27,398 nt of DNA from a virus. The stretch is from the IMG/VR virus record IMGVR_UViG_3300010354_000499, positions 1 to 27,398 of that record; one strand, 5' to 3'. A program made the translations under genes and the position numbers. The notes beneath the pieces were generated by a model. That model saw only the letters and a list, made by a program, of their open reading frames with translations. It was not told where the DNA came from and did no database searches. This document shows, in pieces, positions 5,438 to 24,705 of the stretch; positions within the stretch are counted from its first letter, which is position 1, and the number at the start of each line of letters is the position of its first letter.

Positions 5438-5687
5438 TTGTAAAGAATATACTTTTCCTGTCTTTATTTATGTTTTCAACAACATTAACTTCCCTAATGT
5501 CTTTAACCCAAGCACGAAACATTTGTTTATCTTCAGTAACGGCTATTATATAATTAACACCAGATCTTATAATAGTACCTTTTTCGCCTGTGTTAACATT
5601 CATGATAACATTTCCTTCTTGAAAGATTTCCTTCTGCTTATATCTTTTTTGCGTTGCTTCTTGTTTTATTTTGCGGAAATCTTTCAT
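5400..5687 (-). CDS. 95-aa protein with a KOW/SH3-like core (function unknown)
   Basis: Its core reads GEKGTIIRSGVNYIIAVTED followed by KQMFRAWVKDIREV. This beta-rich pattern resembles KOW or SH3-type barrels and recurs in many small marine myovirus proteins, often near structural genes. The N-terminus is basic and helical (MKDFRKIKQEATQKRYKQKE). The start at 5687 has no clear ribosome-binding site. The A/T-rich stretch at 5697-5711 holds two overlapping AATAAATA late-like boxes, but they lie so close to the ATG that any leader would be under 10 nt. The gene overlaps the next one by 38 nt, which suggests coupled translation. No specific function can be given. Confidence 0.75.
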   Translation of the reverse strand: MKDFRKIKQEATQKRYKQKEIFQEGNVIMNVNTGEKGTIIRSGVNYIIAVTEDKQMFRAWVKDIREVNVVENINKDRKSIFFTNGKTETIDNDPS

Positions 5688-5713: not shown

Positions 5714-5786
5714 TGGAGAATAGCGGACTCGAACCGCTGACATCCTGCTTGCAAAGCAGGCGCTCTACCAACTGAGCTAATTCCCC
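5714..5786 (-). tRNA. tRNA-Ala (anticodon UGC)
   Basis: A complete 73-nt cloverleaf. The acceptor GGGGAAU pairs with AUUCUCC and includes the G3:U70 wobble that identifies alanine tRNAs. The D-arm (GCUC/GAGC), the anticodon stem-loop CCUGC-UUUGCAA-GCAGG and the TC-arm (GGUUCGAGUCC) are all present. CCA is not encoded. It would read GCA and GCU-type codons. Confidence 0.95.
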
Positions 5787-5790
5787 TAAA

Positions 5791-5877
5791 CGGAAGGTGG
5801 GCGAGTCGAACGCCCAAGGGCTTTAACACCTCAACTGTTTTCAAGACAGGTTCCGTCGCCAATCGGATTGACCTTCC
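5791..5877 (-). tRNA. tRNA-Ser (anticodon UGA)
   Basis: An 87-nt class II tRNA. The acceptor is GGAAGGU/ACCUUCC with discriminator G, the anticodon loop is CUUGAAA (anticodon UGA), and a long variable arm is typical of serine. The TC-arm is GGGCGUUCGACUCGCCC. CCA is not encoded. It lies 4 nt from tRNA-Ala, and the two are likely one transcript. Confidence 0.93.
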
Positions 5878-5885
5878 AGTATTTA

Positions 5886-22615: not shown

Positions 22616-23664
22616 TACATTGCTTCACAACTTTCAATATATAGTGTCTTTAATAATTCTTTAAGTGAAGATTTATCTACGGTCATTTCTACTTCGTCAA
22701 CATATTCATTTAATAATGATAATGTATCTTTAATTTCTATATTATCATCATTGTAATCAATAGTTTTATCTACTGTAGTTTCAATAATTTTTAAATCATG
22801 TACTCCAGCATCATATAGATCTTCAATCATTTTTTCAAATTTATAATAATCTTGTTTTTCTTCTACGACAATCTTGACAAAAGTATTTGCATACTCACTG
22901 GGATTGATGCTGAAACTAGAATTAGAAGAATCATTATAATAGATTTTCTTGAAAATCTCATAAGGGTTCTTGACCCGCTTGAGTTTATTTGTCTTTGGTT
23001 CATAAAGATGAAATCCTCGCTCGTCTTTATAATCGTTCCAATATAGTTGATACGGATTGCCAAGATAGGTAACGTTGCCCCTAGATGATTTGTGATGATA
23101 GTGACCAGAGAATACTTGTTTGAACTTGGAAAAGATAGAAGGATCCATTCCTTCTTCTTTCATAATGCCAACATTGACTTCAAACCCAGTTAATTCTAAA
23201 TGACCAACTGCAATTTGAGCACTAGTTTGATTAATCCATTTCATTGTTTCGTCATGATTTTCTTGGTTAATCCAAGGAAGCATAAGAATTTTAGTGTCTT
23301 CAATCATCACAACTTCTGGACTAGAATATATTTGAATATTATCATAGTCCTTTAAAAGTAATTCTGGCGAATTAATTTCGTTTGTATTTTTAAAGTACGT
23401 GCAGTGATTCCCGAGAATCATATGAACAGTAATGCCAGAGTCACGGAGACGATCAAAGTAATGCTTACGAATACGATTCCAAACATTAAAATCAATGCTC
23501 TTTCGATTATCAAATGTATCACCGAGATCGATGATAGTTTTGACGTTATGTTTCTCAAGAGTTGGAAAAAATACCTCATCATAAAATTTTTGAAAGTAGT
23601 CCCAAAAAATAACGCTGCCTTTTCTTCCATCCAAATGTTGATCGGTAATCAAAGCAATTGTCAT
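22615..23664 (-). CDS. 47: Recombination exonuclease subunit gp47 (SbcD/Mre11-like)
   Basis: The metallophosphoesterase nuclease partner of gp46. The 349-aa product shows the di-metal motifs: LITDQHLD (Asp8, His10), DLGDTFDNR (Asp46-Asp49), the GNH box MILGNHCTY (Asn86, His87) and the late FSGHYHHKS. A C-terminal gp46-binding region (about 250-349, rich in Asp/Glu) follows. The length matches T4 gp47 (339 aa). It overlaps gp55 by ATGA at its 5' end and the DUF3110-like gene by 1 nt, so gp55-gp47-gp46 forms one transcript behind the promoter at 24184-24212. Confidence 0.96.
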   Translation of the reverse strand: MTIALITDQHLDGRKGSVIFWDYFQKFYDEVFFPTLEKHNVKTIIDLGDTFDNRKSIDFNVWNRIRKHYFDRLRDSGITVHMILGNHCTYFKNTNEINSPELLLKDYDNIQIYSSPEVVMIEDTKILMLPWINQENHDETMKWINQTSAQIAVGHLELTGFEVNVGIMKEEGMDPSIFSKFKQVFSGHYHHKSSRGNVTYLGNPYQLYWNDYKDERGFHLYEPKTNKLKRVKNPYEIFKKIYYNDSSNSSFSINPSEYANTFVKIVVEEKQDYYKFEKMIEDLYDAGVHDLKIIETTVDKTIDYNDDNIEIKDTLSLLNEYVDEVEMTVDKSSLKELLKTLYIESCEAM

Positions 23665-24152
23665 TTATTCATCCTCGTTTCAATGTTTTCTTTAATGCCA
23701 CACATGTCGGAGAAGTTTGCATTCATGCCAGCCATATCTCCGTCGTAACTATCGGTGTGCATGACATAATCATAACCAGACCTGTCTAGTATTTTGCCTT
23801 TGATTTCTAGTTGTTTCTTTTCTTTTTGAATTCTACGAAGAAAGGCGTAGTAAATAATTTGAGTAAAGTACGCAAAAGGATTAGAAGATTTTTCTGGATC
23901 AAAGTTATCGATATACAATAAGCAATTTTCAATGCCATCGCAAATCATATCTTCTCGAAACATGTAGTTGACAAAGTTTGGTTTGTATGATAAATGCGTA
24001 GCAATCTTCAAAAGACAGTCGCCAATATAATTCGGAACTCTTGGTTTAGGTTGATTGTTTTTCTTAGATTTTAAAACAGAATTTCTATAAACAGTAATTG
24101 CTTCTAAAAATTCTTTGTTATTAACATAATACTCGGTATTCTTTTTTGCCAT
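23661..24152 (-). CDS. 55: Late transcription sigma factor gp55
   Basis: A small divergent sigma70 relative that directs host RNA polymerase to late TATAAATA promoters, activated by the gp45 clamp through gp33-like co-activators. In the 163-aa product the sigma region 2-like segment is LYIDNFDPEKSSNPFAYFTQ followed by IIYYAFLRRIQKEKKQLE, which in the family binds core polymerase and melts the -10 box. I chose the ATG at 24152 (MAKKNTEYYVNN). The frame is open to 24212, but the -10 box of a strong promoter (24184-24189) lies inside that extension, so the longer form would not be transcribed. The length is close to T4 gp55 (185 aa). Confidence 0.93.
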   Translation of the reverse strand: MAKKNTEYYVNNKEFLEAITVYRNSVLKSKKNNQPKPRVPNYIGDCLLKIATHLSYKPNFVNYMFREDMICDGIENCLLYIDNFDPEKSSNPFAYFTQIIYYAFLRRIQKEKKQLEIKGKILDRSGYDYVMHTDSYDGDMAGMNANFSDMCGIKENIETRMNK

Positions 24153-24183: not shown

Positions 24184-24212
24184 AGTATAGCATCGGAAAA
24201 TGGGTTTGTCAA
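24184..24212 (-). promoter_or_regulatory. Near-consensus sigma70 promoter for gp55-gp47-gp46
   Basis: On the minus strand TTGACA (24207-24212), a 17-nt spacer and TATACT (24184-24189) with an extended TGC give 11 of 12 consensus matches. The start site near 24177 is about 25 nt before the gp55 ATG. It is back to back with a plus-strand promoter 27 nt away (24240-24268). Confidence 0.85.
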
Positions 24213-24239: not shown

Positions 24240-24268
24240 TTGACACGGGGTTCAAAACCAGTTATAAT
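24240..24268 (+). promoter_or_regulatory. Perfect consensus sigma70 promoter on the plus strand
   Basis: TTGACA (24240-24245), a 17-nt spacer and TATAAT (24263-24268) match consensus at all 12 positions. This is the only strong promoter I found pointing against the genes. It diverges from the gp55 promoter. The start site near 24275 leads into a 185-nt unit ending at an intrinsic terminator (24427-24459). Confidence 0.8.
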
Positions 24269-24274
24269 CACTCT

Positions 24275-24459
24275 GTTAGGGGTGCATGATTAATTTATTA
24301 GCTTCTATTAAATATATCTTCTAGATACTGTTTGGTTTCCTTTACAGATCCTAAGTAACCCATACGTCTACTGAATTCTTTTGGTTTAATACCAATCTCA
24401 TTAGATTTAGAATCAATTTCTCCACTGAGATGTTTTAAATAAAACGTCTCTATTTTTTT
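24275..24459 (+). ncRNA. Candidate antisense/small RNA
   Basis: Predicted from its ends: a perfect consensus promoter at 24240-24268 and a strong intrinsic terminator at 24427-24459 on the same strand, about 185 nt apart. The RNA would be antisense to the last 160 nt of the Sm-like gene at 24298-24705. Internal short hairpins are possible (UAUCU-UCU-AGAUA at 24313-24325; UUGGU-UUAAU-ACCAA at 24379-24393). Near its 5' end, AGGGG precedes a 12-codon reading frame (24286-24324, MINLLASIKYIF), which may be chance. No similar RNA is known to me at this locus. Confidence 0.55.
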
Positions 24460-24705
24460 GTCTAATTCACTTAGAGTAATTATTTGTTCCATTTTAATAA
24501 TGAACATAGTATCGTAAGTAGCAAGAATCCATTCCTTTAGAATAAATCCTTCTACGTTTACTCCTGATTTTTTGTTTACAATTTTTTCAACTAACATTGG
24601 AGCATCTAAAATAATGCTATCCTCTTCAGGAAGATAGCATATTTTTGCTATCAACTCTTCTCCAGAAGTTAATTTAATTGTTGCATAAAATTCTTCTTCC
24701 ATCAT
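24298..24705 (-). CDS. Sm-like cyanophage protein (copy 3)
   Basis: The 135-aa product resembles those at 11496-11834 and 11222-11518: TIKLTSGEELIAKICYLPEE, then LDAPMLVEKI, then VEGFILKEWILATYDTMFII, then a helix (ELDKKIETFYLKHLSG). A 30-residue basic tail is unique to this copy. This is the beta-barrel plan of Sm/Hfq-like proteins known in cyanophages; RNA binding is inferred. Its ATG overlaps the uvsW stop (ATGA). Its 3' half is covered by a candidate antisense RNA from the plus strand. It is the last gene of the uvsY-uvsW group; no clear terminator follows on its own strand. Confidence 0.75.
   Translation of the reverse strand: MMEEEFYATIKLTSGEELIAKICYLPEEDSIILDAPMLVEKIVNKKSGVNVEGFILKEWILATYDTMFIIKMEQIITLSELDKKIETFYLKHLSGEIDSKSNEIGIKPKEFSRRMGYLGSVKETKQYLEDIFNRS
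24427..24459 (+). terminator. Intrinsic terminator of the plus-strand RNA
   Basis: GAGATGTTTT pairs with AAAACGTCTC over 10 bp (one U:G) with a 4-nt loop AAAT, followed by TATTTTTTT. On the opposite strand the stem is followed by AGTGG, not by T residues, so it is oriented for plus-strand transcription. It lies inside the Sm-like gene. Confidence 0.7.

Follow-up and report, generated by a model that had tools for sequence, protein, structure and literature searches.

A predicted antisense promoter with a dyad at its start site is near-universal at one locus of the Kyanoviridae, and this feature, recognized by sequence comparison, is the discovery reported here. No description of such an antisense promoter and start-site dyad was found in the literature searched. 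In the window (the whole stretch of 27,398 nucleotides that was analysed), the promoter occupies the spacer between gp55 and an Sm-like gene (stop at 24298), both encoded on the minus strand. It is found on the plus strand at 24240-24268 as TTGACA-17-TATAAT, matching the consensus at 12 of 12 positions, with a spacer of 17 that falls within the 16–18 bp of sigma70-type promoters. The features of the locus are as follows.

23661..24152, minus strand: gp55, late sigma factor, with its ATG at 24152 (phrog_234, 218 bits)
24184..24212, minus strand: gp55 promoter TTGACA-17-TATACT (-35 at 24212-24207, -10 at 24189-24184), back to back with the antisense promoter
24240..24245, plus strand: -35 of the antisense promoter, TTGACA, an exact match
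24263..24268, plus strand: antisense promoter -10, TATAAT; relatives have TAnnnT, at a spacer of 17 or, in rare cases, 16 or 18
24269..24284, plus strand: start-site dyad CACTCT-GTTA-GGGGTG, directly past the -10
24275, plus strand: predicted transcription start, the G of TGT (24274-24276), 7 nt past the -10, placed by sigma70 spacing
24275..24459, plus strand: predicted antisense transcript, complementary to the 3′ part of the Sm-like gene and of lineage-specific length
24298..24705, minus strand: Sm-like protein, PHROG 471 (Pfam Sm_like 30.5 bits, cut-off 29.4)
24427..24459, plus strand: terminator-like hairpin (24427-24450) and T tract, common to the near-identical relative L081, with a similar one in L022
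24702..26162, minus strand: UvsW helicase

The initial annotation had described a perfect plus-strand promoter in a minus-strand setting, back to back with the gp55 promoter, giving an RNA of about 185 nt that ends in a 10-bp hairpin with an AAAU loop and a T tract. We were able to confirm each of these sequence elements. The promoter is exact and is placed beyond chance by its conservation in relatives; the neighbours uvsW, the Sm-like gene and gp55 are all on the minus strand; the hairpin reads GAGATGTTTT-AAAT-AAAACGTCTC, then TATTTTTTTG; and the distance from the predicted start to the end of the T tract is about 185 nt. The back-to-back arrangement is present in the window, and the pairing itself is conserved in relatives. 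In 29 of the 95 unique loci the -35 hexamers of the two best-scoring divergent promoters overlap (offset -7), in about 50 they are 2-9 bp apart, and in the window they are separated by 27 bp.

Perfect consensus alone is weak evidence. Window shuffles gave an expectation of 0.01 sites of the form TTGACA-17-TATAAT against the 2 found in the window, and the other site, at 6467-6439 on the minus strand, is internal to the gp41 helicase gene, lies upstream of MazG and has no start-site dyad. The evidence for the antisense promoter comes from its relatives. A set of 116 IMG/VR loci was retrieved through similarity to gp55 or the Sm-like protein, and not through the promoter; 109 of them, including the window and some near-identical loci (95 are unique), have both genes and a readable spacer. 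TTGAC(A/G)-17/18-TAnnnT was found antisense to the Sm-like gene in 109/109 of these uvsW/Sm-like/gp55 loci, the -35 being TTGACA in all except one (TTGACG), and the promoter was also present in 7/7 further loci where no Sm-like gene was detected. The chance of such a promoter, estimated from base composition, is below 1% per spacer. All eight named cyanophage genomes scanned in full (S-PM2, Syn9, P-HM2, P-SSM2, S-SM1, S-RIM2, DSL-LC02 and S-CRM01) carry it, as do S-T4 and the Pelagibacter phages Mosig (spacer 16) and HTVC008M. In ACG-2014f the -35 is TTGCCA, and in the Methylophilales phage Melnitz-1 the promoter is degenerate. No such promoter was detected in Synechococcus phage B23, in which the annotation of gp55 differs, and the more distant T4-like phage Yut2 has no room for it (spacer of 8 bp). 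The promoter is kept even where identity of the Sm-like protein falls to 28%; its conservation does not track the Sm-like sequence. From these comparisons, the predicted antisense promoter is deeply conserved and real.

The second conserved feature is the dyad, which spans about -6 to +10 relative to the predicted start. The corresponding start would be at about 84438-84439 in S-PM2, 123697-123699 in Syn9 and 120708-120710 in P-HM2. A TGT located 6-9 nt downstream of the -10 is invariant in 122/122 elements (L026 included), and the arms around it vary by phage, for example AACTCT/AGGGTT, CACTCT/GGGGTG in the window, and AACAG/CTGTT. The first pair of the window dyad is C-G, compared with A-T in most relatives, both sides having changed. 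Other arms are CTTAG/CTAAG in S-CRM01, AACGG/CCGTT in Mosig, AGGC/GCCT in HTVC008M and CTGG/CCAG in S-T4. A contiguous stem of at least 5 pairs around the TGT (Watson-Crick and G.U) was detected in 62/81 unique elements, against 13% at random and 3/81 in a control with the right flank reversed. Much of this signal needs G.T pairs, since Watson-Crick-only stems (at least 4 in a row) were found in just 19/81 elements, against 9% at random. The arms covary, forming 4.89 of 6 pairs compared with 4.39 (sd 0.087) when arms were shuffled, above all 2000 shuffles; this test is inflated by relatedness, of which the unrelated perfect arms of the distant members are independent. Among the non-Watson-Crick pairs, 64 are G.T and 6 are A.C, many of the G.T pairs being one inherited state. 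This excess points to a dyad that would act as a single plus-sense strand, and not as a symmetric double-stranded operator. A 5′ RNA hairpin is ruled out if the start is 6-8 nt past the -10, as the left arm is then untranscribed. Similarly, a hairpin in a minus-strand RNA is disfavoured because the common form of the dyad would carry a C.A mismatch.

Additional copies of the element were sought in whole genomes. A profile scan of S-PM2 gave two strong sites only, at 64 bits for the antisense copy and 59 bits for a copy preceding gene p212; the other genomes have 0-3 extra copies, before cp12/cpeT and small genes. Pattern scans of viral contigs and contigs from bacterial genomes gave 123 matches, 92 of them at the gp55/Sm spacer, with 10 before cp12 among the remainder. 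The extra copies are mostly sense promoters of small genes, and since they are found in that role before cp12/cpeT and other small genes, the element behaves as a promoter. Some copies face genes in the antisense direction, the genes being named by eye: a 2OG oxygenase (G004), a PAAR gene (L459) and the end of a tail fibre gene (L435). Apparent antisense copies into late/structural or 2OG oxygenase genes were located at 5585 (minus) of L459, 8551 (minus) of L435, 1177 (plus) of L473, 234526 (minus) of G003 and 90631 (plus) of G004, one structural target being a tail fibre with a chaperone end.

Within a genome, the copies tend to share arms, loop length and often the -35/-10 spacing while their spacer sequences differ (G001, G003, G004, S-SM1, S-RIM2, Syn9, S-PM2 and DSL-LC02), a comparison biased toward shared arms, as similarity to the antisense site was the search criterion. 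In Syn9, S-SM1, S-RIM2 and G004, the same copies are recovered with an element taken from another genome. All four sites of G003 have a spacer of 18. The shared arms suggest a trans-acting factor. A small protein that by eye looks like AbrB/MazE is encoded a few genes downstream of the second copy in Syn9 (53843-54007), S-RIM2 (47849-48016) and S-SM1 (49681-49845); this AbrB-like protein of the second-site operon was rejected as the regulator, because it is not universal in the family. A host operator was rejected as well, the element being nearly absent from 84,980 bacterial and archaeal species. Only 4 matches were obtained in that scan, and two of them (L373 and L375) were judged from their genes to be phage contigs; they are cyanophage-looking contigs inside a Lewinella MAG and a Synechococcus single-cell genome. 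By its distribution, the element looks phage-specific.

The predicted RNA fared less well. The hairpin is common only to L081, with an analogous one in L022, and any terminator was found in 3/98 relatives, against 4/98 in the reversed control. Comparing relatives for both elements, as the initial annotation had proposed, thus gave a split result, the promoter being kept and the hairpin not; the promoter-plus-terminator RNA unit is not supported, and the putative RNA of 185 nt is at best specific to this lineage because its terminator is not conserved. The expected constraint on third codon positions was not observed either, the 3′ part of the Sm-like gene beneath the predicted RNA having no extra synonymous conservation. 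The absence of a conserved terminator and of synonymous constraint suggests that the promoter is selected, and not a particular RNA. A small ORF on the RNA (ATG...TAG, 12 codons after AGGGG) was rejected, since it is absent from the aligned relatives except L081. At the Rfam gathering score no RNA family was detected at the locus, and only a tRNA in the whole window. The window has two adjacent tRNA genes on the minus strand, Ala(TGC) and Ser(TGA), at 5714-5786 and 5790-5878, of which the gathering score reports only the first.

The Sm-like label of the opposite gene was upheld. Its Pfam Sm_like score is just above the cut-off, and an AlphaFold model built from 34 relatives (pLDDT 81) matches the Sm/LSm-like structure PDB 3by7 (TM 0.88 by target), with the same predicted fold at 18-20% identity. 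An Sm/LSm fold of the product is therefore supported by modelling. PHROG 471 is widely annotated as 'methylamine utilization', a name that the predicted fold does not support. The further suggestion that the RNA controls the Sm-like protein, or is its partner, found no support; promoter conservation does not follow the Sm sequence, and the gene shows no extra synonymous constraint under the RNA.

The reading that we favour, with a probability of roughly 0.45, is that of an early antisense promoter, used by host sigma70, that competes with the gp55 promoter, opposes uvsY-uvsW-Sm transcription and is regulated through its dyad. It builds on the observed sequence, position, conservation, dyad and back-to-back geometry, from which we infer promoter activity, timing, the RNA 3′ end and a regulatory effect. 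The promoter would be fixed in Kyanoviridae at the boundary of the uvsY-uvsW-Sm and gp55-gp47-gp46 replication genes. Host RNA polymerase with a sigma70-type factor would fire from it early, away from gp55 and into the 3′ end of the Sm-like gene and uvsW. Polymerase at the antisense promoter would compete with that on the gp55 promoter, which overlaps or adjoins it, and the opposing transcription, together with the antisense RNA, would restrain uvsW-Sm read-through and expression until late. The start-site dyad would open the promoter to regulation, a phage function being the probable agent, and would allow it to be turned off at the onset of the late programme. T4 expresses UvsW from a late promoter, and the protein dismantles R-loops at origins (PMC3016281), hence early silence of uvsW would make sense; late expression of uvsW in cyanophages is presumed here by analogy with T4. 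Against this early-antisense model, the dyad's left arm precedes the expected +1, a placement for which simple antisense models have no need. Since the terminator is not conserved and synonymous sites show no added constraint, the sequence of the RNA may be unimportant.

A broader interpretation, which we hold tentatively and regard as possible, is that the element represents a promoter class specific to Kyanoviridae. A stem-loop of the non-template (plus) strand at the start site, with its invariant TGT and arms that differ by lineage, would be read by a co-evolving phage factor, or would set initiation or R-loop formation, and the near-universal antisense copy would be an early-late switch or a replication origin. 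How gene timing works in T4-like cyanophages without MotA, AsiA or Alt is an open question (PMC2984593).

Two other explanations appear unlikely. The first is an antisense RNA that would anneal to the intergenic stretch and the 3′-terminal part of the Sm-like mRNA, either directing cleavage that separates uvsW-Sm from gp55 mRNA, as GadY would, or shielding the message from RNase E. The GadY layout is indeed found at the window locus: in E. coli, GadY is transcribed from a promoter in the spacer between gadX and gadW and is complementary to the 3′ terminus of the upstream member of the tandem pair (PMC7368042). Protection from RNase E has a precedent in marine cyanophage infection, as antisense RNAs reportedly cover nearly all transcripts of the podovirus P-SSP7 in Prochlorococcus and protect them from this enzyme (PMC9692554). 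Moreover, S-PM2 makes the antisense RNA CfrI, likewise a cyanomyovirus RNA, ~200 nt long, that faces the 3′ end of a gene (PMC2984593). The differences are substantial. Unlike GadY, the element is phage-borne, overlaps a divergent promoter in a number of relatives and lacks a conserved terminator; P-SSP7 is T7-like with broad antisense coverage, whereas the window element is one fixed promoter; CfrI, shown experimentally, comes from a different locus, opposite psbA and a homing endonuclease gene, and the TTGACA/dyad element is absent from the stretch upstream of it in S-PM2. The overlapped Sm 3′ end without synonymous constraint, the lack of a 3′ end common to relatives and the sense orientation of other promoter copies also argue against this type of RNA.

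The second unlikely explanation is an operator-bearing promoter that serves gp55 timing alone, a phage regulator binding the dyad and the antisense RNA being a by-product of promoter competition. The dyad at about -6 to +10 is in the classical repressor position, and copies share arms, and often loop length and spacing, in G003, G001, S-SM1, S-RIM2 and Syn9. However, the copies had been recovered through similarity, and in several genomes the same copy is also recovered with the element of another genome. In addition, loops differ in length among phages (about 2-3 to 5-6), G.T pairs, for which double-stranded operators have no need, complete the imperfect dyads, and none of the scanned S-PM2 proteins that recur in nearly all genomes resembled a typical repressor.

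We consider very unlikely an origin of the T4 oriF/oriG kind, in which a transcript R-loop in an A+T-rich stretch would prime DNA synthesis and the dyad would fold in the displaced non-template strand. The element may resemble oriF and oriG, where a promoter precedes A+T-rich DNA, and the phage is likewise T4-like (PMC3016281). The 50 bases past the dyad are 74% A+T, the copies per genome are few, and the best dyads need plus-strand G.T pairs, as a single strand would. However, this stretch is only slightly richer in A+T than the remainder of the Sm gene (74% versus 69%), the copies upstream of ordinary genes are explicable as promoters, no change in GC skew was detected at the site in 13 genomes, and the window element, unlike the T4 origins, has no MotA box. 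Finally, a functionless chance match, to which the perfect site within gp41 might point, is hardly credible, being refuted by conservation in 109/109 loci and in phages of other hosts.

The locus illustrates that a noncoding phage feature can surpass the adjacent protein gene in conservation. A covarying dyad at the start site is unusual for a promoter and offers a feature to look for in transcriptomes of infected cells, and a near-universal antisense promoter beside the late sigma factor promoter, facing uvsW, provides a concrete and testable control point. Its conservation suggests that antisense transcription may serve the Kyanoviridae as a standard switch beside the late sigma factor gene.
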